DNA from: Paenibacillus sp. FSL M7-0420
GTDB taxonomy: Bacteria; Bacillota; Bacilli; Paenibacillales; Paenibacillaceae
Reading direction: 5' to 3'
Assembly: GCF_038002345.1 (NCBI RefSeq)
Contig: NZ_JBBOCJ010000001.1
Coordinates: 4,588,001-4,652,000, forward strand
DNA length: 64,000 bases
Below, one piece after another: positions 6,031 through 56,245 of the stretch; the first letter of the stretch is position 1; every line of letters begins with the position of its first letter. The translations under genes and the position numbers were made by a program. The notes under the pieces were generated by a model. The model worked only from the letters and a program-made list of their open reading frames with translations, was not told the origin of the DNA and made no database searches.

Positions 6031-6165
6031 GATTCAGAGGGATTTATCCCTTTGGTTACGAGCGTGGAGCACGTTTCGCCGAATTCGGAGGGATTTATCC
6101 CTTTGATTACAGGCGGCGGGCACGTTTCGCCGGATTCAGAGGGATTTATCCCTTTGATTTCGGAC
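6031..6165. repeat. 51-bp hairpin repeat array A (3 units; core AGGGA-TTTA-TCCCT)
   Basis: Three tandem units begin at 6031, 6082 and 6133, exactly 51 bp apart. Each reads GATTCAGAGGGATTTATCC or a close variant. The core is an inverted repeat (GAGGGA / TCCCTTT with a TTTA loop), followed by a semi-conserved spacer ending in CACGTTTCGCC. The lead-in GCCGAATTC matches other arrays in the window. Reading frames run through it only because 51 is divisible by three. It lies between the PucR-type regulator start and the racemase stop. Confidence 0.85.
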
Positions 6166-6510
6166 GGCAGATGTATGCAGATATGTTACCTATGGCTAAG
6201 TGCTCTAACCAAATTAGTTACTCTACACCTTCTGGCTATTTCCCATTCCATAGCGCTGCATCATACTCCCTATGTACCTGACCAACTATAATTTACCAGA
6301 TTGCTCTCCTCACTAATTATTCTGTTCAGTACGGCTAAGCTTAACGATTCAACGGATCTGTAACTAACTATTCCCTAATTTATCTCCCCTCCCATTCACT
6401 GAGCACAATAAATGCCAAATGTTACTCAAAAGATACTCATCCACGCCGCCCCACTCTCCTGCTTCCCCAAAGCTCTCCCCCGCCAATACTCCCCCCATAG
6501 TCAATCTGCC
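6166..6510. other. Intergenic stretch without a recognisable gene
   Basis: AT-rich spacer between arrays A and B. I see no ORF with a ribosome binding site, no terminator hairpin with a T-run, and no repeat longer than a few bases. The whole gap between the PucR-type regulator start (5735) and the racemase stop (6915) is 1.2 kb. Apart from arrays A and B and the 14-bp tandem repeat near 6.8 kb it appears empty, including 5736-6030. Confidence 0.6.
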
Positions 6511-6700
6511 CAATTCAGGGGCACTAATGCTCCTCATTCGCTCCTTTTGCCCACTAACGCCCAATTCAGGTGCACTTCTGCTCCTCATTCGCTCCCTTTG
6601 CCCACTTTCGCGAAATTCAGGGGCACTAATGCTCCTCATTCGCTCCTTTTGCCCGCTTACGCCGAATTCAGGGGCACTTGTGCTCCTCTAATCCCCTAAC
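6511..6700. repeat. 51-bp hairpin repeat array B (4 units; core AGGGGCAC-N2-GTGCTCCT type)
   Basis: Four units start at 6511, 6562, 6613 and 6664, spaced exactly 51 bp. Each has an AATTCAGG lead-in, a core such as GGGGCACTTGTGCTCC (near-perfect inverted repeat) and a conserved spacer CATTCGCTCC-TTTTGCCC. Variation is mainly at loop bases (AA, TC or TG) and at a few spacer positions. It lies about 215 bp downstream of the racemase stop codon. Short ORFs through it are artefacts of the 51-bp (17-codon) period. Confidence 0.9.
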
Positions 6701-6760
6701 CACAAACAAGCGTCCCCCGGGCCTGAGCCAGGAGGAGCGCTTTAAGGAGATCATAGCTAT

Positions 6761-6831
6761 TAGTTTGCCACACATTAGTTTACACGCATTGATTTTCACA
6801 CATTGATTTTCACGCATTATTTGCCGCACAT
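6761..6831. repeat. 14-bp tandem repeat, about five copies
   Basis: Consecutive units of the type TGATTTTCACACAT (first copy 15 bp, then 14 bp each) fill 6761-6831. Two middle copies differ at a single base. It is unrelated in period to the 51-bp arrays and sits 84 bp 3' of the racemase gene. Confidence 0.75.
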
Positions 6832-6914
6832 CGCCTATACACGTAGTCTGCCCCACACTTACAAGGACGCGAGTTCTAGCAAATTGCAAAGCCTGCCCAA
6901 CACAAAAAGCCATT

Positions 6915-7571
6915 CTACATGCGATGCACAGCTCCCTCACCAGAAGCTGACGCAGCAGCCGCTGCACCAAGGCAAAGTATGGGATCGAACGCCCGGATGC
7001 CCAGCCGTTCTTCCAGCTCCGCTGCCAGCCCTATGGTCGCGAAGCCGGTGCACGCCAGCACCAGCACTTCCGCGCCGCGCTCCACGAGCCGGGCGGCACC
7101 GGCCAGCGCGCCTGCCCGTCCGGCGGGTGTGTTCAGATCCAGCGTGGTTGTCACGCCGTCGGGGCGGTCCATGCCAACGTAGGCATCGCCGAGAATGCTG
7201 CGGATGAGCGGCGGCACCTCTTCCAGAATCGTCAGCACCCCCACCCGGCTGCTGTACGCCATGGCCGTATGAGCCGCGCAGGAGCCTGCTCCCAGCACAG
7301 GAACATTCACCACTGCCCTGGCTTCTGCCAAGGCAGGGTCAGCTGCACAGCTGATGCCGATTACCGTGCAGCCCTGCTGCTCCAGTTCCCGCGCAAGTGA
7401 GATAATCTTCGGAATGGATTCAGCCTCTGTCTGCGCATCATGCACACCCTGAGGCTGATCCGGGATGCAGCGGCTTATCACCGGCAGACCGTAACACCGC
7501 TCAATTAAATCTCCATGTAACTGGATCGCAGAGCTCTCCTGCAGTGTAATAACACGTATGATTCCAAGCAT
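6915..7571 (-). CDS. Asp/Glu/hydantoin racemase family protein
   Basis: A 218-aa cytoplasmic enzyme of the cofactor-independent racemase fold. The two family cysteines are visible: GISCAADPA near residue 85 and LACTGFATIG near residue 175. These act as the acid/base pair in aspartate, glutamate and hydantoin racemases and in the related maleate isomerases. The ATG at 7571 follows CAGGAGGAGATAGG; longer in-frame starts have no ribosome binding site. It is the last gene of the minus-strand set DUF1177-AroM-aminopeptidase-racemase. The true substrate cannot be read from the sequence; I infer a D/L amino-acid derivative or hydantoin-like compound. Confidence 0.85.
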   Translation of the reverse strand: MLGIIRVITLQESSAIQLHGDLIERCYGLPVISRCIPDQPQGVHDAQTEAESIPKIISLARELEQQGCTVIGISCAADPALAEARAVVNVPVLGAGSCAAHTAMAYSSRVGVLTILEEVPPLIRSILGDAYVGMDRPDGVTTTLDLNTPAGRAGALAGAARLVERGAEVLVLACTGFATIGLAAELEERLGIRAFDPILCLGAAAAASASGEGAVHRM

Positions 7572-7718
7572 CCTATCTCCTCCTGATTCGCCCTGATTTA
7601 GATGCTGCAGCAGCATAACCAGCCGCCCTATTTCAGCCGTAAACAGCAATAGCAGCCGGAAATCCAAAGGTTCACTACAGTAATGATTGAACCTCGCGTT
7701 CAGCAGCTTCCATTCCGC

Positions 7719-8663
7719 TTACAGCAATTCCCCAGCCTGCATAATCAGCTTATCGTCGATGTACACATCCGGCTTCATGACTACTGCGTCAATATGTACG
7801 CCAGCCGCGACAACTCCGCCGAACGTGTTATTGCTGCCAAAAGCCACATGAATCGTCCCGTACACCTTCTCATCCTCCAGCACCACGCCCGTGATCCGGG
7901 CCTTGTTGTTGGTCCCGATCCCGAATTCGCCAAGCAGCCTGCCATCGCCATCTCCAAGCATGTCCAGCAGCTTCCCGCCATGCTCCCCGTCGGCATGAAC
8001 CAGCCGGCCATGCTCCACGGTCAACACCATCGGGCCGTCCAAAGCACCGATCCCTGCAACCGAGCCATCCACTTTAATCTGGCCCGTAGCAGTGCCTTCC
8101 AGCGGCGCAATATAAGCTTCACCGGAGGGCAGATTGCCGGACTCTCCCGGATTTAGATATAATCCGGTGCTGAGAATACCATCCCGGCCGTCAATAGAGA
8201 AACTAAGAACCAGACCTTCCTTCTCCACACGCACCCGGCTGCCCGCAGACAATAGCGCAGCAACCTGCTCGGTCAGTGCCTTAACCTGCCCATAATCCGC
8301 AGTAATCGCCCCGTGGCTGAACATATCATCGGTGATTCCCGGCATGGTCGCTACCCGGGTTCCCGCTGCGGCTGCCTGCTTGCGCGCCGCTGTATGTGTC
8401 ATCGAATGGGTCGTGATGCATACGGCCACATCCGCCTTAGCCATAGCTTCTGCAACCGGAGCCGGAGGCTCCTCCCCCGATCTGCTCCGCGGCTGCATGA
8501 CCAGCAGCATCGATTCCGCTCCCAGCCGCTTGCCTGCCTCATAGACCGACTCAGCCAGATCACGCTTATCATCATCAGCTACTACGGCCAGCAGTTCTCC
8601 GCTGGCAACCCCGAGACAATCCTTAAGAACGTTCATACTAATTGCTATTCTTGCTTCACTCAT
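7719..8663 (-). CDS. M29-like aminopeptidase family protein (leucyl aminopeptidase / dihydroxypyridine dioxygenase superfamily)
   Basis: A 314-aa protein. The C-terminal half has features of M29-type metallo-aminopeptidases and the related 2,5-dihydroxypyridine dioxygenases: LGEFGIGTNNKARITGVVLEDE, then GTIHVAFGSNNTFGG and HIDAVVMKPDVYIDDKLIM. These carry the acidic and histidine metal ligands. The ATG at 8663 is 8 nt after GGAGG; an ATG two codons earlier is too close. It lies 18 bp after aroM-like and about 150 bp before the racemase. Either hydrolysis of an N-terminal amino acid or ring-cleavage-type metal chemistry is possible. The peptide transporter and peptidase nearby favour a peptidase role. 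Confidence 0.75.
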   Translation of the reverse strand: MSEARIAISMNVLKDCLGVASGELLAVVADDDKRDLAESVYEAGKRLGAESMLLVMQPRSRSGEEPPAPVAEAMAKADVAVCITTHSMTHTAARKQAAAAGTRVATMPGITDDMFSHGAITADYGQVKALTEQVAALLSAGSRVRVEKEGLVLSFSIDGRDGILSTGLYLNPGESGNLPSGEAYIAPLEGTATGQIKVDGSVAGIGALDGPMVLTVEHGRLVHADGEHGGKLLDMLGDGDGRLLGEFGIGTNNKARITGVVLEDEKVYGTIHVAFGSNNTFGGVVAAGVHIDAVVMKPDVYIDDKLIMQAGELL

Positions 8664-8681
8664 CTTCATTTCCTCCCGGGA

Positions 8682-9350
8682 TTAAACCATTTCTGCTACC
8701 AGCTTGCCCATCAGGGCATTGGACAGCACGGCGGGCACTCCTGCGGAGGCCGCCCACTGTCTATGCTGCTCCACATATCCCATACAGTCAAGCACTATCA
8801 CGTCCGCATGATCCCGCAGACGCTCTGCTGCGGCGCGAAAATCCGCTTCCGTACCCGTATAAGGTGATGCCGCTGCGAATGGCAGCCGTGCTCCGGCTCC
8901 TGCGAATTTTTCAATCATTGCGTCCTCCTGCTCGGGCAAAGGGCCAATCAGTCCCAGACGGCGCCCGTCCAGCATCGCCTGCACGACCGGAGGAATGATC
9001 CGGTCCGGCTCAATCAGATGGGCAGCAGACGTATGCAGTCCCGGAAAAACTCCCGTACACGCCAGCAGGATCGTCCGAATCCCAGCGGCTTCCATAGCAT
9101 CAATCTTCCCTTGGAGAACGGACTGTATCCGCTCCCGCGAAATTACCGCAGCGGACCCGTCCGCCATGCGGGTGGTCAGCACATACTCTCCCGGCCCTGG
9201 ACTGTAGAATTCACGCACCTGTTCAGCCGTGAACCCGTCCAGCACCCCGGACTGAACCAGTCCCGCCTTGCCTTCCAGATATTTCTCAATGATGGGCGCG
9301 ACATCCTGCCTGGGTGCTTGCCCAATCGTAATCAGCCCGATATTCTTCAT
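8682..9350 (-). CDS. AroM family protein
   Basis: A 222-aa protein with the AroM opening MKNIGLITIGQAPRQDV and the two racemase-fold cysteine segments LLACTGVFPGL (about residue 97) and VLDCMGY (about 185). AroM belongs to the same Asp/Glu racemase-like fold as the neighbouring 6915-7571 gene. The E. coli protein lies next to aroL but has no firm function. The start follows TGGAGGGACAAGA. The cluster therefore encodes two racemase-fold proteins in one apparent operon, which suggests sequential steps or a heteromeric enzyme acting on a related substrate (inference). Confidence 0.85.
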   Translation of the reverse strand: MKNIGLITIGQAPRQDVAPIIEKYLEGKAGLVQSGVLDGFTAEQVREFYSPGPGEYVLTTRMADGSAAVISRERIQSVLQGKIDAMEAAGIRTILLACTGVFPGLHTSAAHLIEPDRIIPPVVQAMLDGRRLGLIGPLPEQEDAMIEKFAGAGARLPFAAASPYTGTEADFRAAAERLRDHADVIVLDCMGYVEQHRQWAASAGVPAVLSNALMGKLVAEMV

Positions 9351-9400
9351 TCTTGTCCCTCCAGACGCTATAGGTTACAAACCAAGCTGTGCTAACAGAG

Positions 9401-9426
9401 CAGGCGCTGAAGGAAGCTCAGCGCCT
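9401..9426. promoter_or_regulatory. Intercistronic hairpin between DUF1177 and aroM-like
   Basis: A 10-bp perfect stem (CAGGCGCTGA / TCAGCGCCTG) with a 6-nt loop and no T-run on either strand. It lies in the 103-bp gap after DUF1177. It could be an attenuator or a processing/stability element in a polycistronic message rather than a terminator. Confidence 0.45.
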
Positions 9427-9453
9427 GACTGTACATGTACATCTGTTATCCTG

Positions 9454-10404
9454 TTAATGAGAGATGACTGCCGGTTTACCCAGCGTCTGCAGCACGCTCA
9501 TGGAGCCGTACAGCTCGGTAATCTTCGCAAACTCTGCTTCGTTGTAGAAGGAGCATGTCCCCTGCGTTACTTCCTTGGCCGTCTCGATAGCAAAACGCAC
9601 CGCCTGAGCAATATCCACCTCATGGCTGGCACCGGTACCACAGCCCGGAACCATAGACTGGGCAGTAATCGCGAGGCCCACCACCGGAGCAGAGGTAGCT
9701 ACCGCAGGCTGAAGAATGGAATTGATATGATACAGCCCGTTGCCGTAAGGGGTAATATCCTGAGTCGTCACCGGAAAAGTCACCGGGTACTGTCCGGTCG
9801 TCATTTCCTTGATCCGCAGCAAATCTTCGCTGACCCGCAGAATATAGCCTTCTTTAACCGTCGGTGAGATGGCGATCCCTTTGTGGTTAACCACACGGTT
9901 GCCTTTGGTCGTATCAATCGATAGAACCGCTTCCATCTCCGGCAGCACTTCATGCTCATTCATCTGCAGAATATCTACAGGAGAATCCATGAAATCCACC
10001 GGCTCGTGCGGCAGGGTTGGAGCATCCGGGCAAATATGGGTGGTAACCAGCACATCCCCCAGCAGCACATCCCCTTTGGTCTGCATGTCTGCCAGCTTCA
10101 GCGCAGAAGCAATCGCCGCGACCGCACCGTCTGCATCAGAGACCAGGCCAATCCGGCTCGGGCGCGCCCCGATACCACCCAGTCTGCCGACAATACCAAA
10201 CGTTGGGGCAGATCCGCCAGTGAGCTTGCCTTCGCTGCCCGGGATCGTGATTTTAACGAATTCTGTGCTGCCCTTCTCCCCTTCGACCTTCTGAATCTCA
10301 ACCTTAACCGCAGGATATTCTGCGAATAACTGCTTGACCTGCTTACCGTTAACATAAGCGCTGTCCAGTGCGTTCAAGACTGTAATCGTTTGCTGAAGTG
10401 CCAT
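9454..10404 (-). CDS. DUF1177 family protein
   Basis: A 316-aa protein recognised as DUF1177 from its overall pattern: MALQQTITVLNALDSAYVNG, the glycine-rich IVGRLGGIGARPSRIGLVSDADGAVAA, and HICPDAPTLPHEPVDFMDSP. The His/Asp/Glu-rich middle could bind a metal. The start follows GGGGAGG by 7 nt. It is the first gene of the four-gene unit ending at 6915. From memory, DUF1177 genes tend to occur beside AroM, racemase and aminopeptidase genes and peptide transporters, as here; no biochemical function is known to me. It is divergent from the serine hydrolase at 10652, with 247 bp between them. Confidence 0.8.
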   Translation of the reverse strand: MALQQTITVLNALDSAYVNGKQVKQLFAEYPAVKVEIQKVEGEKGSTEFVKITIPGSEGKLTGGSAPTFGIVGRLGGIGARPSRIGLVSDADGAVAAIASALKLADMQTKGDVLLGDVLVTTHICPDAPTLPHEPVDFMDSPVDILQMNEHEVLPEMEAVLSIDTTKGNRVVNHKGIAISPTVKEGYILRVSEDLLRIKEMTTGQYPVTFPVTTQDITPYGNGLYHINSILQPAVATSAPVVGLAITAQSMVPGCGTGASHEVDIAQAVRFAIETAKEVTQGTCSFYNEAEFAKITELYGSMSVLQTLGKPAVISH

Positions 10405-10651
10405 TCTAATTCCTCCCCGGATGCATGCTCATGTTTGTCATGTTTGCATTTATACTATCTCATCTCGCAAAATGTCCACAATGTACCGCCCTGCCAAACT
10501 GGAACAGCATTTCTTGTCCTTTGCAGATAAACCTTACGCGCAGCGTACACTCTTACGGCTTACCGCCCATGAATAAAGGTTAATTCTCCCAAGCAGCGAA
10601 ATATATCAGGGTACTGATGCTTTATTTTCCAGACAGGAGGTGCTTCATACG

Positions 10652-11701
10652 ATGAAGTCTGCACATCAGATTAACAAGGACAAGCTGGTCCAGATTATCA
10701 GTGAAGAGGCCCGGCGGACGGGGTTCTCAGGGGTCGTACAGGTGACGGAACGGGAGCATGTCCTTGCAGCGGCAGCTTTTGGGATAGCTAATATCGGGGA
10801 CGTACGGCTCAACCAGGCCCACACCCGCTTCGCCATCGCTTCCGGCAGCAAGCTATTTACCGCCATTGCAGTCTGCCAGCTCGCAGAGCAGGGTTTGTTT
10901 TCTTTTGACGCCAAAATACTGGACATCCTGCCGAAGCAGGAATTCCCATTGTTCGATCCGGCGATCACAGTGCATCAGCTATTGACTCACAGCTCGGGCA
11001 TACCGGATTACTTCGATGAAGAAGAGATGGAGGATTTCGCGGCACTGTGGAAGGAGACCCCGATGTACACGCTGAGGCGGCCCGGAGATTTCCTCCCGCT
11101 GTTCGCCGGACTGCCGATGAAATTCGCCCCAGGCGGGCGGTTTCACTATAACAATGCAGGATATATCATGCTTGCTATGCTCGTAGAAGCCGTCAGCGGG
11201 CAACCTTTTACGGAATATGTAGAACAACATATTTTCCTGCCTTGCGGGATGAAGGATTCCGGTTACTTCGCGCTTGATGCGCTTCCGGCCCACACCGCTC
11301 AGGGATACATCGACAGCAGCAATGGGAAAAAGACCAGCAACATCTACTCCATTCCGGTGGTCGGAGGCGGGGACGGAGGGGCATTTGTTACGGCGGCGGA
11401 TATGCATAAGCTGTGGAGCGGCTTGCTTGAACACAAGCTGTTACAGGCAGAGACCACGGCTCTGCTGCTGACACCGCATATATATGAGCGAAAGGACAGC
11501 TATTACGGTTATGGCGTGTGGATACAGTCCGGCCCCAGCGAAAAGGTGCTAAAGTACCATATCATGGGCTACGATCCCGGGATCAGCTTCCACTCCGCAT
11601 ATTATCCCGAACGGAGCTTAACAATTACTGCTCTCTGTAACAAGAGTAACGGGGCTTATCAGATGATGTCTGCGATGGAGGATTATCTGCCGGTGGGGTA
11701 G
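10652..11701 (+). CDS. Serine hydrolase, class C beta-lactamase / penicillin-binding fold
   Basis: A 349-aa protein of the beta-lactamase-related family (PF00144). The nucleophile motif S-x-x-K is S64-G-S-K67 (ASGSKLFTA). The second element is the Tyr motif YNNAGY (about residue 168), and near the C-terminus HIMGYDPG occupies the position of the H-x-G/K-T-G motif. There is no obvious signal peptide, so it is probably cytoplasmic and an esterase or D-aminopeptidase-like hydrolase rather than a secreted beta-lactamase. The ATG at 10652 is 11 nt after ACAGGAGG; the upstream GTG at 10640 overlaps the ribosome binding site. It is a lone plus-strand gene with its own terminator. Confidence 0.88.
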   Translation: MKSAHQINKDKLVQIISEEARRTGFSGVVQVTEREHVLAAAAFGIANIGDVRLNQAHTRFAIASGSKLFTAIAVCQLAEQGLFSFDAKILDILPKQEFPLFDPAITVHQLLTHSSGIPDYFDEEEMEDFAALWKETPMYTLRRPGDFLPLFAGLPMKFAPGGRFHYNNAGYIMLAMLVEAVSGQPFTEYVEQHIFLPCGMKDSGYFALDALPAHTAQGYIDSSNGKKTSNIYSIPVVGGGDGGAFVTAADMHKLWSGLLEHKLLQAETTALLLTPHIYERKDSYYGYGVWIQSGPSEKVLKYHIMGYDPGISFHSAYYPERSLTITALCNKSNGAYQMMSAMEDYLPVG

Positions 11702-11757
11702 CGGTATGTTCCGTTTAGCAGTTACGGAGTATGATTCAATTATCCTCAGATACACTT

Positions 11758-11797
11758 ATAGCCTTAGCTCAGTTTCTGGGCTAAGGCTATTTTACTT
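11758..11797 (+). terminator. Terminator of the serine hydrolase gene
   Basis: An 11-bp stem (ATAGCCTTAGC / GCTAAGGCTAT) with an 11-nt loop, then TTTACTTTT on the plus strand. It lies 57 bp after the hydrolase stop and also separates it from the convergent collagen-like gene. Confidence 0.88.
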
Positions 11798-11820
11798 TTA
11801 ATCTGCCGGGTGGAGTGGGG

Positions 11821-13704
<1,884 letters not shown>

Positions 13705-13982
13705 CTACTTCATTGCTTAAAGTGTCAATCTCTATTAAATGAACTGCAGATTCATCCAGAACCTATCGGCTCCTTCCATATGAATCCGGTAATAAAATAT
13801 AATGTAGTCTATCCTATTCAAACCAATTTCAACTGCGTATGCTGTTGACCCTAGTAATCAGTAGTTTGGTTCCATTCGTTACGAGATTCAGGCTTATGCA
13901 AAGGGAATTACTAGGTACGTAGGGAACAGGCGGAAGAATTACCCGGATGTCTTCAGAACAAAATGCCTGCGGCATCCCCATT

Positions 13983-14237
13983 GTGATCGGTTTTTCGACC
14001 ATATCCGGCCCACGCATCTCTACCGCACCGAATGTAGTCGGTTTTTCGACCATATCCGGCCCACGCGCCTTTGCCGCACCGAATGTGATCGGTTTTTCGA
14101 CCATATCCGGCCCACACGCCTCCGCCGCACCGAATGTGGTCGGTTTTTCGACCATATCTGGCCCACACGCCTCCGCTGCACCGAATGTGGTCGGTTTTTC
14201 GACCACATCCGGCCCAGATGACCACGCGCTGTTCATG
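13983..14237. repeat. 51-bp hairpin repeat array C (5 units; GGTCG-loop-CGACC core)
   Basis: Five units start at 13983, 14034, 14085, 14136 and 14187, each exactly 51 bp apart. The core is an inverted repeat around a GTTTTT loop; the last unit has perfect 9-bp arms (ATGTGGTCG / CGACCACAT). The spacer CCGGCCCACACGCCTCCGCC is well conserved, and each unit is introduced by GCACCGAAT. Two long overlapping ORFs through the array, on opposite strands, result from the 17-codon period. The array lies 159 bp beyond the pdp stop and past its terminator. Confidence 0.92.
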
Positions 14238-14302
14238 TGTTCGGACCTCCCCCCAACTTTATGCACTACTTATCCCCATCGGACGTAAATCATAATTTCC
14301 CT

Positions 14303-14356
14303 AATCAAAAATAAAACAAGCCGTACGCCAGCAATCTGCTGATTCGTACGGCTTGT
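14303..14356 (-). terminator. Terminator of the xerD/deoB/pnp/pdp transcription unit
   Basis: A 12-bp perfect stem (ACAAGCCGTACG / CGTACGGCTTGT) followed on the minus strand by TTTTATTTTTG. It lies 40 bp after the pdp stop codon. Confidence 0.92.
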
Positions 14357-14395
14357 TTGTATTAACAGGATTCCAGCGTAATACTCCGTTTCCAG

Positions 14396-15727
14396 CTAGT
14401 AACGCGTTACCCCGTCCTTGGTCACCAGCGCAAAAACCAGCGGCTGCGGCGGAACTGGCTGGGCGGAGATGCGGTAAGCCTCCAGCACTTTGACTTCGGC
14501 CTCCTGCACCTTGCTCTCGCTGGCATCGTTCACATGCAGTACTGCCAGCGTATCGCCTGCAGCCACGGCGTCGCCGACCTTCAGCGAGAGCTGAATGCCG
14601 ACCGCCAGATCGATCACGGACTCCTTCGTCTCGCGTCCGGCACCGAGCAGCATCGCGGCCACACCGATCTCTTCAGCCTGGATGCTCTCCACATAGCCTG
14701 CGGTCGCAGCCTTGACCTCGATGAATCTGCGGGCAGCAGGCAGGGTATCAGGCGAATCAATCTGCGAGACATCGCCGCCCTGGGCTGACACCATCTGCTT
14801 GAACTTAGCGAGGGCGCTGCCATCTTCGATATGGGACAGCAGCATGGAGCGCGCTTCTTCCTCATCCTTCGCCTTGCCGCCGAGCACCAGCATCTGGCTG
14901 CCCAGGATCAGGCAGACCTCCTGCAGATCCTTCGGCCCGTGACCGTTCAAGGTTTCGATACCCTCTTTGATCTCCAGGGCATTGCCGATACCGAAGCCCA
15001 GCGGCTGGTCCATATCGCTGATGACCGCTACCGTGTTGCGGCCAAGGTGTGTCCCGATATCCACCATGGCCTGGGCGAGCGCGATGGAATCGTCCAGTGT
15101 CTTCATGAATGCGCCGCTGCCAGTCTTCACATCCAGCACGATGGCGTCAGCGCCTGCGGCGATCTTCTTGCTCATGACGGAGCTGGCAATCAGCGGGATC
15201 GATTCCACCGTGGCCGTCACATCACGCAGGGCATACAGCTTCTTGTCCGCCGGCGTGATGTTGCCGGACTGGCCGATCACCGCCGCACCGATCTCGCCCA
15301 CCTGGGCGAAGAACCGTTCCCGGTCCATCTCCACCGAGAATCCCGTGATCGACTCCAGCTTGTCCAGTGTGCCTCCGGTGTGGCCGAGGCCGCGCCCGGA
15401 CATTTTGGCTACCGGAACTCCGGCCGCTGCGACCAGCGGTGCAAGCACCACCGTCGTCTTATCACCCACGCCTCCGGTAGAATGCTTGTCCACCTTGATG
15501 CCCGCAATCGGGCTAAGGTCCACCTGGTCACCAGACATCGCCATCTCCAGAGTCAGGTCGCCGGTCTCCCGCGCATTCATTCCGCGGAAATACACGGCCA
15601 TTGCCCAGGCGGAAATTTGATAATCCGGGATTTCCCCTTTGCTGTAGCCTTGGATCAGGAACGCTATTTCTTCGCGGCTAAGCTCACCGCCGTCTCTTTT
15701 TTTCTGAATAAGATCAACAGCACGCAT
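14396..15727 (-). CDS. pdp: Pyrimidine-nucleoside phosphorylase
   Basis: A 443-aa enzyme that phosphorolyses uridine, deoxyuridine and thymidine to the base and (deoxy)ribose-1-phosphate. The thymidine phosphorylase family signature is intact: [15 protein letters not shown] (about residues 80-94), then [16 protein letters not shown]. The C-terminal PYNP domain ([25 protein letters not shown]) is also present. The length is standard. Its ATG overlaps the TGA of the preceding purine nucleoside phosphorylase gene by one base, so translation is probably coupled. It is the last gene of the minus-strand salvage set deoB-pnp-pnp-pdp. The deoxyribose-1-phosphate it makes is the substrate of DeoB, encoded upstream. 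Confidence 0.95.
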
Positions 15728-16590
15728 CAGATCTGTACCTCACGGACGAAGGCGCGCACCAGTCCGATGAATTTTGGCTTGGTCAGGTTCGCCACTTTGA
15801 CCACCTGCTCATGGGTGAGCGGCTCCAGCTCATCGCCAATCGCCATGTCGGTGATACAGGTAATGCCGAGCACACGCAGCTTGCTGTGACTGGCCACGAT
15901 AACCTCCGGCACGGTGGACATTCCCACGGCATCGCCGCCGAGATAAGCCAGCATTTTCAGCTCAGCCGGGGTCTCATAAGTAGGGCCGCTGATGCCGGCA
16001 TATACGCCTTCCTGCAGGACAAGCGCTTCACCGTCCACACCTGTAACGCCCCCTGCAAGCTTCTTCGCCAATGCAATATATTCAGGGTCATAGGCACTGG
16101 ACATATCAGGGAACCTTACGCCCAGCTCCGGATCATTCGGTCCGATCAGCGGGTTGTCGCCGGTCATATTGAGATGGTCGGTAATCAGCATCAGGTCGCC
16201 TGCCTTGAACGCTCTGTTCATCCCGCCGCCTGCGTTGGTAATAACAAGGGTGCCGATGCCCAGCTTAGCCATTACATAGACCGGAAGAACTACCTTGCGC
16301 ATCTCATAACCTTCATAGTAGTGAAAACGGCCCTGCATGATCATAACATCCTTGCCTTCCAGCTTACCGATCACGAATCTTCCGGCATGGCCTTCTACCG
16401 TTGAATGGGGGAAATGCGGAATTTCTTCATAAGGCAGGTAGACTGCATCTTCGATCTGATCGCCCAGGTCGCCAAGACCTGAACCCAGAATAAGGCCGAT
16501 TGCCGGTGTATAACCGCCGAATTTGGATTGAATATATGCAGCAGCTTCCTGAACCTGAGTGCCGTATGGGACTGTTGTTGGTGTTGTCAT
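15727..16590 (-). CDS. Purine nucleoside phosphorylase, paralogue with Asp at the base-recognition position
   Basis: A 287-aa trimeric-type PNP (PunA/DeoD-II family): [12 protein letters not shown] phosphate loop, [20 protein letters not shown], and [10 protein letters not shown] with the base-binding Glu206. The segment that contacts the purine N7/O6 reads CITDMAIG, with Asp248 where the family normally has Asn (the adjacent paralogue has CITNMAAG). It also has TNAGGG in place of TNAAGG. In human PNP the equivalent Asn243-to-Asp change shifts preference toward 6-aminopurines, so this copy may accept adenosine. It follows the second PNP by 57 bp, starts after GGGAGGATC, and overlaps pdp. Confidence 0.92.
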
Positions 16591-16647
16591 CGATTGATCC
16601 TCCCGGATATGGATTGTGTATAGATTAACGCGTATGTGAAGCAGTAC

Positions 16648-17472
16648 CTACATTTTGGGAATAAAAGCAAGCACAAGCTTCAGGAACTGCTCGCGCACAC
16701 GCTCAGCGGTCTTCATCACCTCTGCATGATTCAGCGGCTGTGGAAGAATACCGGCTGCCATGTTGGTGATACAGGAAATGCCCAGCACTTCAATTCCGGC
16801 ATGACGGGCAACGATGGTCTCGGATACGGTGGACATGCCTACGGCATCTGCTCCCTGGCGGCGCAGCATCACGATCTCAGCAGGCGTCTCATAGTTCGGT
16901 CCGAGCAGACCCGCATATACGCCTTCCTTGAACTCAAAATTCAGTGCGGCGGCAGCTTCCTTGGCAGCTGCAATCAGACGCGGGCTGTACGCCGAGGACA
17001 TATCCGGGAACCTTACGCCCAGCGCATTGTCGTTCGGTCCGCTCAGCGGATTGCGGCCGGTCAGATTCAGATGATCCGTGATCAGCATGAGATCCCCTGG
17101 TGTGTATTCCGTATTCACGCCACCGGCTGCGTTGGTGACCAGCAGGCTGGTTACGCCCAGCTCCTTCATCACCCGTACCGGGAAGGCTGTAACCTCAGGG
17201 CCGTAGCCTTCATACATGTGGAAGCGGCCCTTCATCATGACCACGCGGCGGCCTTCGATCATGCCGATCAGCAGCTCGCCTTCATGTCCTTCTACCGTGG
17301 ACACAGGGAAATGAGGAATCTCATGATAAGGAATAACGACTTCATCTGTGATCAGATCCGCCAGAATGCCGAGGCCGGAGCCTAGGATCAGCCCGATTTC
17401 GGGGGCGACGGTGCATTTATCTTTGATATATACGGCTGCTTCTTGAATATGGTTAAGAGTCACATTGGTCAT
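16648..17472 (-). CDS. Purine nucleoside phosphorylase (6-oxopurine type)
   Basis: A 274-aa PNP cleaving inosine and guanosine, and their deoxy forms, with phosphate. Family elements are intact: [52 protein letters not shown] with Glu195, and CITNMAAG with the purine-selecting Asn237. It is the orthologue by position of Bacillus pupG/punA, directly downstream of deoB (19 bp). The start follows TGGAGG. The two PNPs are tandem paralogues about half identical by eye, and the second copy is probably a duplication that diverged in specificity. Confidence 0.94.
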   Translation of the reverse strand: MTNVTLNHIQEAAVYIKDKCTVAPEIGLILGSGLGILADLITDEVVIPYHEIPHFPVSTVEGHEGELLIGMIEGRRVVMMKGRFHMYEGYGPEVTAFPVRVMKELGVTSLLVTNAAGGVNTEYTPGDLMLITDHLNLTGRNPLSGPNDNALGVRFPDMSSAYSPRLIAAAKEAAAALNFEFKEGVYAGLLGPNYETPAEIVMLRRQGADAVGMSTVSETIVARHAGIEVLGISCITNMAAGILPQPLNHAEVMKTAERVREQFLKLVLAFIPKM

Positions 17473-17491
17473 GGTTTGGTTTCCTCCAGAA

Positions 17492-18670
17492 TTAGATTAG
17501 TTGAGACAAAAAGCTCGTCCCGTACTGCGGCGCCTTCGCTCCGAAGTTGTCGGCGATTGTGGCGGCCACATCCGAGAAGGTCTGGCGGATGCCCAGGCTG
17601 CCTGGAGTCTTGAATCTCGGGCTGTAGACCAGGAGCGGCACATACTCGCGTGTGTGGTCCGTTCCGGCATGGACCGGGTCATTGCCATGGTCTGCGGAGA
17701 TGATCAGCAGATCATCCTCACCGAGGGTAGAGAGCAGCTCAGGCAGCGCCTGATCGAATACCTCCAGCGCACGGCCGTAGCCTTCCGGATCACGGCGGTG
17801 GCCGTAGAGGGAATCGAAGTCCACCAGATTGGTGAACAGGAATCCGTCGAACGGCTTGCGCAACTCGTCGATCGTAATCTGGATGCCGTGTTCATTGCTT
17901 TTGGTCGGATAGGTTGCGGTTACCCCTTCGCCGGTAAAAATATCATTGATCTTACCCACAGCAATCACATCCTTGCCGATATCCTCCAGTGCATTCATCA
18001 CCGTCGGCTCAGGCGGCTTCACCGCATAATCATGGCGGTTAGGTGTACGCACGAAGTTGCCCGGCTCGCCCACATAAGGGCGGGCAATCACGCGGCCAAC
18101 AGAGAACTCGGGAGCCATCGTCAGCTCACGGGCGATTTTACAAGCGCTATATAGCTCCTCCAGAGGGATAATATCTTCATGTGCCGCAAGCTGGAACACG
18201 CTGTCCGCTGAAGTATAGACAATCCATGCGCCCGTCTTCATCTGCTCCTCGCCGTATTCCACAAGAATCTCCGTGCCGGAGGCCGGCTTGTTACCGATGA
18301 CCTTGCGTCCGGTAGCCGCTTCGAATTTCTCGATCAGCTCCGCAGGGAAGCCATCAAAATAGGTGTTAAAAGGAACCTCGATCTTCAGTCCCATCAGCTC
18401 CCAGTGGCCGGTCATGGTGTCCTTGCCTACGGATACCTCCTGCATTTTGCCGTAGTAGCCTGTAGGGGCCGTTACCGGTTCAAGCGGCGGCAGCGGGGCA
18501 ATATTCGCCAGCCCGAGCTGCTGCAGATTCGGAAGCTTAAGACCCGGAACCCGTTCCAGAATATGGCCCAGCGTATGGGAGCCTGTATCTCCGAAATTAG
18601 CGGCATCCGGTGCTTCACCGATACCTACACTGTCCAGAACAATAAATCCGATGCGTTTAAATGAGGACAT
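17492..18670 (-). CDS. deoB: Phosphopentomutase
   Basis: A 392-aa manganese enzyme of the alkaline-phosphatase superfamily. It interconverts (deoxy)ribose-1-phosphate and -5-phosphate, feeding nucleoside sugars into the pentose phosphate route. Visible motifs are [14 protein letters not shown] (metal ligand Asp), KDTMTGHWE with the phosphorylated Thr, and the C-terminal ISADHGNDP...[12 protein letters not shown] metal site. The ATG at 18670 lies 11 nt after AAAGGAG; an in-frame TTG farther upstream is less likely. It stands between xerD and the PNP genes as in Bacillus (drm-punA). Confidence 0.95.
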
Positions 18671-18724
18671 TGCCGTCTTCACTCCTTTTATAGTTTGCAT
18701 AATCTTCTCGTCTGCTCTAAGCAT

Positions 18725-18765
18725 GAAGAAACTCCGGGAGAACCTCTCCCGGGAGCGATTTCTTC
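18725..18765. promoter_or_regulatory. Nested hairpin upstream of deoB
   Basis: Two nested stems (GAAGAAA / TTTCTTC outside; TCCGGGAG / CTCCCGGGA inside) lie 55 bp before the deoB start and about 100 bp after xerD. There is no long T-run. It may be a weak terminator between xerD and deoB or a leader structure. Confidence 0.45.
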
Positions 18766-18868
18766 AGTATGATTCCATCATAACTTTCTTACTCACAAAA
18801 AGCATCTTTTCGGCCTAATCCGATCCGCCCGCCCGTATTCCTAAGGTCCCTCATCCCTGTACAGCCGG

Positions 18869-20343: not shown

Positions 20344-20640
20344 GAAATCAGGTGCAATTTTACACCTTATTCCCCTGTTTAGTCCACGTTTGCCAAAATC
20401 AGGTGCACTAATGCTCTTCATTTGCTCAATATAGCGTACTTGGACTGGATTTAGGTGCACTTGTGCTCTTCATTTGCCCGTTTAGCCGACTTTGGCTGAA
20501 TTCAGGTGCACTTGTGCTCTTCATTACTCTCCTTCAACTGCCCGTCCAGCACACTTTTAGTGAATTTAGTGGGATTTATCCCTTTCTTTTCCTTATCCAG
20601 ATCACTTTCAGCCAATTCAAAGGGATTTATCCCTTTCATT
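20344..20640. repeat. 51-bp hairpin repeat array D (6 units, two core types)
   Basis: Units whose AGGTGC or GGG cores begin at about 20350, 20401, 20453, 20504, 20568 and 20620. Spacings are 51, 52, 51, 64 and 51. The first four units carry the GGTGCAC-type core also seen in array B (CAGGTGCACTTGTGCTC). The last two carry the GGGATTTATCCC core of array A. Lead-ins resemble GCTGAATTC or GCCAATTC. It lies about 150 bp 3' of fur, beyond the fur terminator. Confidence 0.9.
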
Positions 20641-27979: not shown

Positions 27980-28160
27980 AAATCCTGCACTTAATGCAAC
28001 ATTCGCTCATAAAAATCTGCCCAAAATTAAAAATGTTGCACGAAATGCAGCATTCCTGTTCATACAGGCGGCAAAGCGGATATTTTGTTGCATTTCCTGC
28101 AGCATTCTGCCTAATCCACTATTTATTTCGTATCTAAAGCCACTTTCTGCAACATTCTTG
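27980..28160. repeat. 51-bp hairpin repeat array E (4 units; TTGCA-loop-TGCAACATT core) inside the bkd set
   Basis: The 3' arms TGCAACATTC / TGCAGCATTC occur at 27995, 28046, 28098 and 28148 (spacings 51, 52, 50). The second unit has a near-perfect stem AATGTTGCA / TGCAGCATT around a CGAAA loop (one G-U pair). Spacers are more diverged than in arrays C and G. The array fills most of the gap between the E1-beta stop (28205) and the E2 start (27851). Confidence 0.8.
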
Positions 28161-32611: not shown

Positions 32612-33045
32612 GCTAAGTGCAGTTTGTACAACTAAAATGCTCGGATCAGGCCCATTGTGAGGTTTAGCTGCACTTCGTACACTTATAAATCTCTGCATTG
32701 CGTTTAAAGACTAATGTGCCTGATCTTAGTTGTACGGAATACATCTATGCCAGCTTATTCGTTAATCCGCAGCATTATAGCTGCACGAAATACAACTATC
32801 CGCGAGATAAGAGATAAGCTTCACAGTATGTGGTACGATATTAGAGCTTACCAACAGCACAATTGCACAATGTACAACAGAAAAGGGTAATCTCCAGCAG
32901 AATTCAAAAGCTATTGCACTTCGTACAATAGAATTCGAACAAACCCCACTTTTCTGCTCAAATCAGCAAAATCTAATGTACCAAATACAGTAGAATACCA
33001 TTTCCCACTCAAAAATCAGATTTCTATTGCACAATATACAGTTAC
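32612..33045. repeat. 51-bp hairpin repeat array F (8 units in pairs; CTATTGCAC-loop-GTACAATAG core)
   Basis: Core positions (CTGCAC / TTGCAC / TTGTAC) are 32617, 32668, 32730, 32781, 32863, 32914, 32976 and 33027. Spacings are 51, 62, 51, 82, 51, 62 and 51. Units thus come in 51-bp pairs, with a 113-bp higher-order period inside each half. A clear example at 32911-32931 has arms CTATTGCAC / GTACAATAG (one G-U) around TTC. It fills most of the convergent gap between the DUF2627 gene and the ABC transporter. I see no gene in this gap, including 33046-33191. Confidence 0.8.
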
Positions 33046-38681: not shown

Positions 38682-38696
38682 ATGTGTCACCTCCCT

Positions 38697-43211: not shown

Positions 43212-43270
43212 GCAGGAGGAGGGATTCCAACATCCTGAGGATCGACATATTCAGGTATGCCTGCACATGT

Positions 43271-43305: not shown

Positions 43306-43560
43306 GTTTGCGGATTCACCACGTATAATAACCCAAGTGTTTTTTATTATTCAGCAAGATCTTCGTCAATGCTGCAACACACAATATAATATAGATTGCC
43401 AGGAAAACCGGCATAGAAAGGAACCCCCTCTAAAAAATGTTACTGGCTACGGTACTTGTTGCATCATTTGGAGAAATTCTGGTGTTTAGAGCAAGTTAGT
43501 GGTCGGTTTGTTGCTTGTTTTTCCATTACATTTGGTTCAAGTGCCTCTGCCCCGCTTAAT

Positions 43561-43800
43561 GTAATCGTTTTTTCGATTACATTTGGGCTGCATGCCCACG
43601 TAGCGCCGAATGTAATCGGTTTTTCGATTACATTTGGGCTGCATGCCCACGTAGCGCCGAATGTAATCGGTTTTTCGATTACATTTGAGCCGCATGCCCA
43701 CGTAGCGCCGAATGTGATCGGTTTTTCGATTACATTTGAGTCGCATGCCCACGTAGCGCCGAATGTGATCGGTTTTTCGATTACATTCTCATTGTGTTCG
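43561..43800. repeat. 51-bp hairpin repeat array G (5 units; ATGTAATCG-loop-CGATTACAT core)
   Basis: Five units begin at 43561, 43612, 43663, 43714 and 43765, all exactly 51 bp apart. A degenerate unit precedes them (from about 43499). The core has perfect 9-bp arms ATGTAATCG / CGATTACAT around GTTTTT, and the spacer TTGGGCTGCATGCCCACGTA-GCGCCGA is almost invariant and itself contains GGGC-TGCAT-GCCC. Loop and lead-in match array C. It lies 114 bp 3' of spo0A beyond its terminator, in a convergent gap. No gene is seen in 43306-43560. Confidence 0.93.
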
Positions 43801-43837
43801 GCTTTTCGTGTACATCCGACCTGTCTTCAGTGAAACA

Positions 43838-43897
43838 AAATACCACTTGCTATTGGGGAATACAATTTCCCATTAGCAAGTGGTATTTATTTTTTAT
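43838..43897. terminator. Bidirectional terminator of spo0A
   Basis: A 15-bp outer stem AAATACCACTTGCTA / TAGCAAGTGGTATTT with an inner GGGAA/TTCCC pairing. T-rich on both strands (TTTATTTTTT on plus; TTTTGTTT on minus), 17 bp after the spo0A stop. Confidence 0.92.
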
Positions 43898-43913
43898 CCA
43901 GCCCCTAACCCCT

Positions 43914-53144: not shown

Positions 53145-54501
53145 TCGCTGTGCCATCCTCCTTCATTCCCCATACGTGGCAGTTTAGTTGTCCGTCATTA
53201 AGCTTTATGTTGACCACATCGCCAAGCTCTACTTCCTTCAGCGATTTGATTAAATGCTGCTCCTTCTCGTCATACACGAGGCTGTAGCCACGTGACATGA
53301 CCTTAAGCGGGCTGAGCGCATCCAGATGGCGCAGCTCTGCCCCAAACCGCGCGCGCTTATCGGCAAGGCGCGCCTGCATGGCCGCCGTCAGCTCACGGGT
53401 GAGGCCATCCGTGCGCCGGCGGGCAGCGCTGACGCTGCTAAGCGGATGGAAGCGCTGCAGGCTCTGGTGCAGCAGCGCGCTGCGCCCCTGCGCGCGGCTG
53501 TGCCTTGCCTCTGCTGCGCGGAGCAGGGCCGCGCGCAGCATATCCAGCCGCTGCGCGTGCTGGGCCAGCTGCCGGCGGGGGCCGGCCAGCGCCAGCGAGC
53601 GCTGCAGTGCAGCGAGGCGTTCGCCGCCGCGCTGCGAGCGGCGCAGCAGCCCTTGGCGCAGCCGCTGCCGGACCATGCGCAGCTGCCCGGCCAGCTCGGC
53701 TGCGCTCGGCACAGCGAGCTCCGCCGCTGCCGTAGGGGTGGCCGCCCGGAGATCGGCGGCGAAATCGGCGATCGTGAAGTCGGTCTCGTGGCCCACGGCC
53801 GAGATGACCGGAATCCCGGAGGCCGCAATCGCCCGGGCGACGGCCTCTTCATTGAAGGCCCACAGCTCCTCCAGGGAGCCGCCGCCGCGCCCGACAATCA
53901 GCACATCGGCCTCTCCCATGGCATTCAGGTTCTGTATGGCCTGTACAATGGACGGTCCAGCCCCCTTACCCTGCACTAGTACAGGGTGGAGTACAATCGC
54001 AACCTGCGGGTAGCGCCGCTGCAGGGTGATGATGATATCCCTCACAGCTGCTCCTGTCGGTGAGGTCACAACCCCGATGCAGCGCGGGAATTGCGGCAGC
54101 GGACGCTTGCGCTCCGCTGCGAACAGGCCTTCCTTTTCCAGCTTGCTCTTCAGCTGCTCGTAAGCCAGATACAGGCTGCCGATTCCGTCAGGCTGCATAT
54201 GTGTCGCATAGAACTGGTATTGCCCGTCCCGTTCATATACAGTCACATTTCCCCTGGCTATTACCTTCGTGCCTTCCTTGGGCACGAACGGCAGCCGCGA
54301 GTTATGCGAAGCGAACATGATGGCTTTGATCCGGCTGCTCTCATCCTTCAGCGTGAAGTACATATGCCCGCTACCGTGATGGGTGAAATTCGAGATTTCA
54401 CCGCGAATCCATACGTCGGACAGCAGCGCATCCGAATCCAGCTTCATACGGATATATTTGTTAAGCTCCTTGATGGAGTAGATCTGCCGCTCTGCCGCCA
54501 T
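53128..54501 (-). CDS. xseA: Exodeoxyribonuclease VII large subunit
   Basis: A 457-aa nuclease subunit. The OB-fold N-terminus (SIKELNKYIRMKLDSDALLSDVWIRGEISN, about 7-100) precedes the catalytic domain with GVVTSPTGAAVRDI, VGRGGGSLEELWAFNEEAVARAI and GHETDFTIADFAADLRAATPTAAAE. The long Arg/Ala/Leu-rich helical region after residue 280 is unusually GC-rich. Start ATG 54501 lacks a strong ribosome binding site and lies 9 bp after folD, so it may depend on translational coupling. Confidence 0.95.
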   Translation of the reverse strand: MAAERQIYSIKELNKYIRMKLDSDALLSDVWIRGEISNFTHHGSGHMYFTLKDESSRIKAIMFASHNSRLPFVPKEGTKVIARGNVTVYERDGQYQFYATHMQPDGIGSLYLAYEQLKSKLEKEGLFAAERKRPLPQFPRCIGVVTSPTGAAVRDIIITLQRRYPQVAIVLHPVLVQGKGAGPSIVQAIQNLNAMGEADVLIVGRGGGSLEELWAFNEEAVARAIAASGIPVISAVGHETDFTIADFAADLRAATPTAAAELAVPSAAELAGQLRMVRQRLRQGLLRRSQRGGERLAALQRSLALAGPRRQLAQHAQRLDMLRAALLRAAEARHSRAQGRSALLHQSLQRFHPLSSVSAARRRTDGLTRELTAAMQARLADKRARFGAELRHLDALSPLKVMSRGYSLVYDEKEQHLIKSLKEVELGDVVNIKLNDGQLNCHVWGMKEDGTANGEGS

Positions 54502-54510
54502 AAGTCCGGC

Positions 54511-55368
54511 CTACTTCAGGCCGCGGCGGCGTTTGGCGGCGATCAGTGTGTTGCTCATCAGCATGGTGATCGTCATCGGTCCTACGCCGCCCGGCACAGG
54601 CGTGATATGCCCAGCGACTTCCCGGGCACTCTCATAATCGACATCCCCGGCAAGCTTGCCGGTATCCAGACGGTTCATCCCGACATCAATCACAACCGCG
54701 CCCGGCTTCACGAACGAGGCGTCGATGAAGTTGGCCCGTCCAATCGCTACCACCAGGATATCGGCCTGACGGCTAAGCTCAGCCATATTCGCTGTGCGCG
54801 AGTGGCACATGGTTACAGTGGCATTCTCACGCTGTAACAGCAGAGATACAGGCTTGCCGACAATATTACTGCGGCCGATCACGACAGCATGCTTGCCGGA
54901 GATCTCCGTACCGGTCCGCTTAATCAGTTCAATGACCCCGGCAGGCGTGCAGGGAAGCAGACTGTCATCCCCGATGACGAGATTCCCTACATTGACCGGG
55001 TGGAAGCCGTCCACATCCTTCTCTACAGAGATGGCGTCAATCACAGCCTTCTCTTCAATATGCTTCGGAAGCGGCAGCTGAACGAGGATGCCGTCAATAT
55101 CGCTGCGGCCGTTCAGGTCCGCCACCAGTGCCAGCAGCTCCTGCTGGGTGGTAGCGGCATCCAGCCGGTGCACCTCGGAATGGAAGCCCAGTTCAATACA
55201 GGACTTCTCCTTGTTACGCACATAGACCTGGGAAGCCGGATCTTCACCGACCAGAACGACAGCCAGACCCGGCTTTACGCCGCGCTCCGCTAAGTCTGCA
55301 ACCTCCCGGGCAATCCCGATCCGAATGTCGTCCGATACCTGTTTACCGCTGATAATCGCTGCTGTCAT
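54511..55368 (-). CDS. folD: Bifunctional methylenetetrahydrofolate dehydrogenase/cyclohydrolase
   Basis: A 285-aa one-carbon enzyme. Signatures: [18 protein letters not shown] (active-site Lys region), [12 protein letters not shown], the NADP site [17 protein letters not shown] and the C-terminal [12 protein letters not shown]. Length standard. Start after AGGGGAGAGACTTAC. It lies between nusB (108 bp upstream) and xseA as in Bacillus. Confidence 0.97.
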
Positions 55369-55476
55369 GTAAGTCTCTCCCCTATTGTCTATTGAAGGCT
55401 TATTAGCCTGTTACTGCCGCCTGCTGCTGAATCTGAATCGAATCTGAATCGAATTTAAATGGAAGCTGAAGCTGAA

Positions 55477-55926
55477 CTACAGCTCAGCTCTAAGCGTGTC
55501 CACATCCTGAATCATTTTACCGAGGACACCATTCACGAATTTACCGGAATCTTCTGTGCCGAAATGCTTGGCCAGATCAATCGCCTCATTGACGGACACC
55601 TTGGCCGGCACATCGCTGGCGAAGATCATCTCGAAGGTAGCCAGACGCAGAATCTGACGGTCTACACGTGACAAGCGGCTCATCTGCCAGCCCTTAAGAT
55701 AATGCTCCAGCATATCGTCAATCGCCATTTTGTGCTCCCACACGCCGTTGACATGCGTAACAACATAAGCCTTCAGTTCAATCTCATCGGTAATAACGCG
55801 CTCGGTTTCATTCTCATCTGCCGCTTCTTCAATCAGCATGTCAACCGCTTCGGTAACCTCTACATCGTTCATTTCCATCTGGTACAGGCTTTGTACAATA
55901 ATTTCTCTCGCTAAACGTCTCTTCAT
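55477..55926 (-). CDS. nusB: Transcription antitermination factor NusB
   Basis: A 149-aa all-helical RNA-binding factor that acts with S10 at rRNA boxA. KRRLAREIIVQSLYQMEMNDV at the start and DRQILRLATFEMIFASDVPAKVSVNEAIDLAKHFG, the conserved core, near the end. Start after TAGGAGGAACAC. The upstream gap to DUF2273 (413 bp) is filled by array H, so nusB may be transcribed from a promoter there or as part of a longer message. Confidence 0.96.
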   Translation of the reverse strand: MKRRLAREIIVQSLYQMEMNDVEVTEAVDMLIEEAADENETERVITDEIELKAYVVTHVNGVWEHKMAIDDMLEHYLKGWQMSRLSRVDRQILRLATFEMIFASDVPAKVSVNEAIDLAKHFGTEDSGKFVNGVLGKMIQDVDTLRAEL

Positions 55927-56030
55927 GTGTTCCTCCTACGAACTAGCCTCTTGTTTTGGTGTTACAGATTTCAACAATTACAACCGGACCAGCTTCTATC
56001 CTACATTTCCTCACATAAACGTCCGCATAG

Positions 56031-56245
56031 GCCGATTTAAGAGCATTTATACCCTTAATTTCCTCAAAAAACCCACTCCGAGCCGATTCAGGTGTATTTA
56101 TACCCTTAACTTTCTCAAAAAGCCCACTACGGGCCGATTCAGGTGTATTTATACCCTTAATTTTCTCAAAAAGCCCACTCCGAGCCGATTTAGGTGCATT
56201 TATACCCTTAACTTTCTCAAAAAGCACACTCCGGGCATTTATACT
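56031..56245. repeat. 51-bp hairpin repeat array H (4 units plus a truncated fifth; GGTGTATTTATACCC core)
   Basis: Lead-in GCCGATT recurs with G at 56034, 56085, 56136 and 56187, each exactly 51 bp apart. A fifth, shortened unit (GGGCATTTATAC) follows near 56234. Core GGTGTA-TT-TATACC is an inverted repeat with one G-U; spacer TTAACTTTCTCAAAAAGCCC is strongly conserved. It lies between the DUF2273 stop and the nusB start on the same strand, starting about 90 bp after DUF2273. Confidence 0.92.

Follow-up and report, generated by a model that had tools for sequence, protein, structure and literature searches.

The 64-kb window analysed here (bases 4,588,001-4,652,000 of the 7.66-Mb chromosome of Paenibacillus sp. 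FSL M7-0420) contains eight intergenic arrays, A to H, built of palindromic cores of about 21-27 bp that recur every 51-52 bp with spacers between them. An earlier note on this DNA had reported eight such arrays, and all of them were recovered in place. A consensus scan of the window gave 34 units (A 3, B 4, C 5, D 6, E 3, F 2, G 7, H 4), the seven of array G including one degenerate unit at each end; with one more unit in array E and two in array F recognized by eye, the total is about 37, a little below the approximately 39 first counted. The cores fall into several types, and the arrays are, in window coordinates:

6032..6159, + strand: array A, three T4 cores (AATCAGAGGGATTTATCCCTTTCATT type), steps of 51 and 51 bp (consensus scan)
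6512..6691, + strand: array B, four T3 cores (AATTCAGGTGCACTTGTGCTCTTCATT type), steps of 51, 51, and 51 bp (consensus scan)
13980..14209, + strand: array C, five T1 cores (AATGTAATCGGTTTTTCGATTACATT type, variant GTGATCG/CGACCAT), steps of 51 bp
20345..20640, + strand: array D, composite, four T3 cores then two T4 cores, steps of 51, 52, 51, 64, and 51 bp
27981..28160, mixed strand: array E, TE cores (AATGTTGCA...TGCAACATT), two on the - strand and one on the + strand, steps of 51 and 52 bp
32614..32798: array F, TF element (TAGTTGTAC...TACAACTA) (scan and by eye)
43507..43816, + strand: array G, five near-perfect T1 cores at exact 51-bp steps and a degenerate core at each end
56034..56213, + strand: array H, four T5 cores (GATTCAGGTGTATTTATACCCTTAACT type), steps of 51 bp

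The exact 51-bp step proposed for arrays A, B, C, G, and H holds for four of them, and fails in array G at a single step, of 29 bp, leading to the degenerate last unit. Arrays D, E, and F keep to 51 bp with few exceptions, as had been described: the 64-bp step of array D is the T3/T4 junction and amounts to about six helical turns, array E includes a strand flip, and in array F the scan found two + units 51 bp apart at 32727 and 32778, the units seen by eye lying at about 32614-32690. Elsewhere, the TF element has a pair of - units and a pair of + units, separated by 62 bp. The T1 core is AATGTAATCG-GTTTTT-CGATTACATT, and the T2 core, absent from the window, is AATGTATGC-TGTTTTTC-GCATACATT.

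The same pitch is found along the chromosome. In a sample made up of the window and 80 stretches of 20 kb spaced over the length of the chromosome (1.66 Mb in all), Tandem Repeats Finder returned 194 rows, with 51 bp as the commonest period (38 rows), 9 rows at 52 bp, and 16 at 102-104 bp; the genome-wide enrichment of 51 bp, whose absence was to have refuted the earlier proposal, is therefore present. The consensuses of seven core types (T1, T2, T3, T4, T5, TE, and TF) gave 375 instances in 110 groups, of which 46 are single; thresholds were one lower for some types, and single matches are counted as no evidence. Within groups, 175 of 265 steps are exactly 51 bp and 53 are 52 bp (together 228/265). 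At a threshold of at least 19/26 matches, the T1 consensus was found at 152 positions of the sample, versus none in a Markov-resampled control.

All seven core types have this pitch in common, and an eighth occurs at 51 bp in other species: motif-free sampling of 20 kb from each of 19 genomes of other members of the genus revealed, in one of them (G003), the T6 core, AATCAAAGGCA-TTTT-TGCCTTTGATT, which is close to T4. Neighbouring units are of the same type and strand in 626 of 718 pairs, with steps of 51 bp in 544 and 52 bp in 60 of the 626 (604 together), and where type or strand switches, 44 of the 92 junctions measure 50-53 bp. In composite arrays, T3 precedes T4 in 35/35 junctions, with two exceptions among fresh loci (L214 and L175). 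The view of the arrays as one element class with constant pitch and variable core agrees with these observations, given that the pitch survives switches of core and strand and recurs with another core elsewhere.

Spacers of different core types have position-specific preferences partly in common. Correlations between spacer profiles reach 0.71 for T1-T2 and T3-T4, 0.60 for T4-T6, and 0.55 for T3-T6; they are lower for T1-T6 (0.44), T2-T6 (0.45), and T1-T4 and T2-T4 (0.29 each), and not significant, at about 0.2, for T1-T3 and T2-T3. The lead-in related to GCCGAATTCAGG that had been pointed out before the cores is indeed the end of this partly common spacer consensus. Cores are less variable than spacers in the few arrays compared, with within-array variabilities for core and spacer of 0.039 and 0.082 in T1 (6 arrays), 0.09 and 0.189 in T3 (2 arrays), and 0.037 and 0.227 in T4 (1 array).

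Natural junction lengths span 32 to about 95 bp. For helical phasing, we took the switch junctions, removed spacings of 49-54 bp and multiples that correspond to skipped units (100-107 and 151-159 bp), and scanned periods of 8-14 bp. The 51 remaining spacings give a best period of 10.45 bp (R 0.56, phase -0.02, scan-corrected p 0.0005), with 78% within 0.2 turn of a whole number versus 40% expected. When only junctions that join different cores are taken (n=36), the scan peaks at 10.40 bp (R 0.62, phase 0.02, scan-corrected p 0.0005), and 83% deviate from whole turns by no more than 0.2 turn, which would put the sites on one helix face as in cooperative operator or centromere arrays; this phasing is weak among fresh loci of the own genome (n=10). 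At one T3/T4 locus orthologous in four species, the junctions measure 51, 42, 51, and 73 bp, and the unit numbers differ. A separate signal is seen in base composition: with types pooled, the strongest harmonic of G+C along the unit is 51/5 = 10.2 bp (power 0.31, versus 0.11 for the next; p 0.0002 with spacer columns permuted), and it is found in T2 (p 0.029), T3 (p 0.0004), T4 (p 0.0014), and T6 (p <0.0002). The clustering at whole turns supports the helical explanation that the earlier note had offered for the pitch. Its suggestion of selection for spacing, like whole-turn phasing itself and a constraint on it, has support short of proof: equal steps within a homogeneous block could be explained by duplication of a 51-bp unit, which is insufficient by itself for the quantised junctions.

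The arrays are also oriented with respect to replication, a feature that the earlier note did not mention, nor did it mention the T3/T4 order or the use of cores as insertion targets. The sign of the GC skew changes at 3.73-3.82 Mb, taken as the terminus, and at 7.22-7.31 Mb, taken as the origin, which places the window in the left arm, where + is the expected strand (array A, for example, is +). In this genome, 35/35 T4 loci and 36/40 T1 loci are oriented against the fork. For T1-T5 groups, 42/47 are oriented in this way with the origin set at position 0, and 44/47 in a hand recount that takes 7.27 Mb as the origin. Close to the terminus, the strand flips within 3 kb between T1 units (-, from 3,786,427) and T2 units (+, from 3,789,391); a dif site sought near this flip gave a best match of 19/28, the background level. 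In further genomes, a division of the chromosome into two arcs of opposite orientation fits, among the loci listed, 21/21 in G042, 25/25 in G073, and 12/12 in G071 (T3/T4), and 17/18 in G079 (T4); of 2000 shuffles, 0, 0, 39, and 30, respectively, reached the same fit. The fit is also seen among the loci listed in G022 (7/7), G039 (9/9), and G061 (6/6), too few for significance. As a separate, post hoc observation, T4 matches leave a gap of about 0.9 Mb at the origin and another of about this size at the terminus, in both of which T1 matches are present.

Gene direction does not fully explain this orientation. Only 860 of 1138 genes called in the own-genome sample, by our own simple gene finder, lie on the leading strand. 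Groups between convergent genes agree with their arm in 16/18 cases (17/18 in the recount), or 15/17 (16/17) without array C, which was called convergent only because the gene finder missed a repeat-rich open reading frame (ORF) at 11821-13677. A context with both flanking genes on the lagging strand was met at none of 35 loci in one set and in one clear T1-T5 case in the set of 47 groups, and with such flank pairs almost absent, replication and transcription are not fully separable.

None of the 64 groups of at least two units lies inside a called gene. Among intergenic regions of 150 bp or more, T1-T5 groups occupy 18/68 that are convergent, 22/296 codirectional, and 5/113 divergent, counts that depend on the same gene calls and share their weakness at array C. 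The arrays are extragenic and avoid divergent (promoter) regions, as repetitive extragenic palindromic (REP) sequences and bacterial interspersed mosaic elements (BIMEs) do. In 52/79 cases, a terminator-like hairpin stands between the array and the end of the gene, versus 381/1138 gene ends overall, a figure that counts genes inside operons.

Outside the window's genome, exact two-unit patterns were found in 6 of 81 (T1), 22 of 100 (T4), and 8 of 100 (T6) genomes of the genus, the own genome being counted in each, and a reversed control pattern matched none. A genome search across the order, made with a combined T4/T6 pattern and without T1, T2, and T3, matched 16/296 genomes, every one of them from the window's genus, out of 48 genera covered. 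A further scan with one genome for each species, which may omit the window's own species, gave the T1 pair in Paenibacillus piscarius, in P. silagei, and once in each of two Bacteroidota bins (L148 and L124); of these two, L148 was inspected and rejected, as it is a long single hairpin and not an array. No 51-bp tandem arrays were found in the 140 kb sampled from each of G028 and G055, which shows that the trait is patchy within the genus. The sampled part of G028 contains, at L187 13993-14355, a CRISPR-like 65-bp array.

Arrays of one pitch, kept across cores and species and with a regular orientation and genomic context, are thus what we observe. We tentatively read them as rows of DNA-level binding sites on one helix face with chromosome polarity, a reading for which we would claim a little less than an even chance. 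The combination of helix-phased spacing with orientation along the direction of copying suggests that a protein reads the arrays along one face of the chromosome, and we infer that such a protein binds them and that they have a part in chromosome polarity. Neighbouring cores on the same helix face would be occupied by dimeric DNA-binding proteins, of one or several kinds, which could touch one another and so wrap or bridge the DNA. The polarity of an array would be set by its asymmetric loop and spacers, and might indicate direction to some machine (replisome, DNA translocase, or condensin) as it travels along the arm or reads it. Duplication and loss of 51-bp units would lengthen and shorten the arrays, and a core could be exchanged in place provided that palindrome and pitch are preserved. 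A bolder version, which we consider doubtful, is that in a Paenibacillus lineage a distributed, polar, helix-phased array code marks the arms: interchangeable palindromes on one DNA face would form nucleoprotein segments that give a chromosome machine (translocase, condensin, or replisome) its origin-to-terminus direction, with a constant pitch and a core free to change together with its reader. Should there be a reader protein, spore formers would have a new factor of the nucleoid or of segregation, and the junction lengths, variable as they naturally are, would offer a ready-made experiment on helical phasing. Even if the arrays are selfish, a repeat that keeps its 51-bp pitch and exchanges its palindrome would represent a new evolutionary mode for dispersed DNA.

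Several observations weigh against binding sites with chromosome polarity. We found no binding protein for the arrays, the reading of several unrelated cores by one assembly is unexplained, and a symmetric dimer by itself would not need polarity. Phasing is weak at fresh own-genome loci (n=10, R 0.46, p 0.12; p 0.026 in a one-sided test at phase 0) and not significant at fresh loci of relatives (n=4); T3-T4 junctions of relatives alone (n=15) give p 0.035 at 10.45 bp and 0.10 after scan correction, homologous loci are not independent, and the 10.2-bp harmonic has p 0.08 in T1 alone. Exceptions to polarity include four T1 loci (0.70, 0.89, 5.67, and 7.56 Mb), one T2 and one T2/T1 group, and a variant core, AGGGATTTTTCCCT, with a 52-bp pitch, which at G022:C1:1822511 and G092:C1:1875478 lies opposite to its listed arm neighbours. 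Many members of the genus match none of the patterns searched, and arrays come and go between close species, from which it follows that single arrays are dispensable.

Possible, if rather unlikely, is that the arrays are REP-like repeats spread or amplified via single-stranded DNA at the fork, with a strand-specific loop copied or recognized on one template and the pitch arising by unit duplication. The near-complete orientation of T1 and T4 along the replichores, the high copy number, and the extragenic location, rarest per intergenic region between divergent and commonest between convergent genes, would all fit. Cores also serve as targets of insertion sequences (IS), as REPs do according to PMC1525189, and the many dispersed extragenic palindromes in regular arrays resemble REPs and BIMEs, the palindromic units of Enterobacteria and Pseudomonas, as characterized there and in PMC2817692. 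Unlike these, the Paenibacillus units are arranged head to tail and show changeable cores, whole-turn spacing, and replichore polarity. PMC2817692 describes BIMEs as alternating in orientation, and PMC3733652 gives REPs GTAG or CGTC tags, with head-tail dimers absent or under-represented. The same-strand pairs counted above (626/718) do not follow the alternating order, and neither tag stands at the stem in the core and flank consensuses of T1, T2, T3, T4, and T6. No stand-alone REP-associated tyrosine transposase (RAYT, Y1_Tnp domain) was found in the window's genome: its only intact Y1_Tnp lies beside tnpB in an IS605-type element, and two fragments lie at 6.79 Mb. RAYT-driven REPs were rejected on this ground. 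Three pairs of filled and empty sites were inspected, none of which is a clean insertion, and the whole-turn junctions and the 10.2-bp composition signal would have no reason under a single-strand mechanism. The BIME is the nearest known counterpart, yet its tag, transposase, and alternating order were looked for here and not found.

Neutral tandem repeats, expanded by slippage of a 51-bp unit and oriented by strand-biased mutation with nothing to read them, appear distinctly unlikely. The variable unit numbers of orthologous arrays and the presence of arrays in one species and not in a close one are as expected of such repeats. So is the stronger skew on the leading strand, with GC skew of 0.161 in arrays versus 0.086 in other intergenic DNA and AT skew of 0.143 versus 0.025, figures in which three stretches at 7.31-7.55 Mb were assigned to the wrong arm. 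Slippage would not account for the same pitch in unrelated cores and species, kept through many core switches and flips, nor for the helical clustering and the stronger conservation of cores than of spacers; T4 orientation is complete, whereas the leading-strand bias of genes is only partial.

Even less probable are RNA-level hairpins, such as terminators, 3'-end stabilisers, or small RNAs made from transcribed arrays. The cores are hairpin-like, and codirectional arrays lie nearer the 3' end of the upstream gene in 16/22 cases. In stems, G.T mismatches exceed A.C mismatches in T1 (204/94), T3 (174/73), TE (49/13), and TF (31/14); the reverse is found in T2 (43 G.T, 75 A.C) and T4 (71, 111), and RNA hairpins were rejected on this difference between types. 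In addition, the frequent terminator-like hairpin between gene and array (52/79) counts against this reading, an Rfam scan of the window gave no match above the gathering score, and helical spacing has no meaning in RNA. Coding of 17-residue repeat peptides (51 bp being 17 codons) is highly improbable: some frame is open throughout in 36/55 arrays of at least three units, versus 18.9 expected from column shuffling, but the 80 open frames are scattered over both strands and several frames, and extend beyond the arrays no more than controls, frames are broken by 52-bp steps and strand flips, and T1, T3, and T4 spacers have no codon-position pattern in common; coding was rejected as not frame-specific.

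Other known systems share single features with the arrays. The FtsK-orienting polar sequences (KOPS) and SpoIIIE recognition sequences (SRS) show a similar orientation from origin to terminus in both arms, which is found here for T4 (35/35) and T1 (36/40); in PMC2680272, KOPS are 8-bp motifs oriented from origin to terminus in each arm. Unlike 8-bp motifs, the Paenibacillus elements are palindrome arrays of hundreds of bp. In plasmid centromeres of the sopC type, units of comparable length are repeated in tandem, and each contains a palindrome to which a dimeric protein binds; such a centromere occupies one plasmid locus and has one core. The Paenibacillus arrays differ in occupying many chromosomal loci, with at least eight cores and replichore polarity. 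A palindromic repeat of about 26 bp and a spacer of about 25 bp recall clustered regularly interspaced short palindromic repeats (CRISPR), whereas the spacers here are repeated within an array and partly common between arrays; no cas domains were found among ten window genes scanned.

The earlier note knew of no named family of this kind, and this view stands, with no Rfam match in the window and no description of such arrays in the open-licence literature, which leaves out most subscription journals; the available text of PMC6344855 and PMC13155455, searched by term, does not mention Paenibacillus. Dispersed extragenic palindromes are of a known kind; what is new, in the literature searched, is the combination of whole-turn spacing across unrelated cores with near-complete replichore orientation.

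The ten genes near the window arrays, examined by domain scan, have no theme in common:

neighbours 1-5: PucR-type regulator, Asp/Glu racemase, beta-lactamase-fold protein, pyrimidine nucleoside phosphorylase-like protein, Fur family protein
neighbours 6-10: 2-oxoacid dehydrogenase E2, transketolase-domain protein, ABC transporter, Spo0A, NusB

Array G adjoins the Spo0A-like gene. Array E is flanked by same-strand genes with E2 and E1-beta-like (transketolase) domains, and probably lies inside a pyruvate dehydrogenase-type operon. Array C lies upstream of the start of the large ORF on the - strand at 11821-13677, which contains long repeats of 9, 36, and 90 bp and is perhaps collagen-like. When 202 flanking proteins were compared all against all, the matches were orthologous neighbours, IS transposases, and some distant similarities, with no single recurring protein except one IS transposase and the proteins of two-array loci.

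Insertion sequences were found in or next to several cores. An IS4-family element (PF01609; best annotated relatives 'IS4 family' and 'IS1675 family') lies inside T3 cores at L064 1912-3234, where a 10-bp duplication of the core centre flanks it, and at L025 10376-11698, where a near copy of this duplication is present; in L063, at about 15060-15125, the end of the element abuts a T3 core. An IS110-family element (PF02371) occupies the loop of a T1 or T2 core in P. silagei (L142, about 1366-2972) and in the own genome (L047, about 6550-8155), and lies beside T1 units at L014 of the own genome (about 7105-8709, left end not inspected). The bridge RNA of this IS110-family element may be matched to the core. 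The genome's only intact IS605-type element, with tnpA and tnpB (L091 975-3000), adjoins a T1 array.

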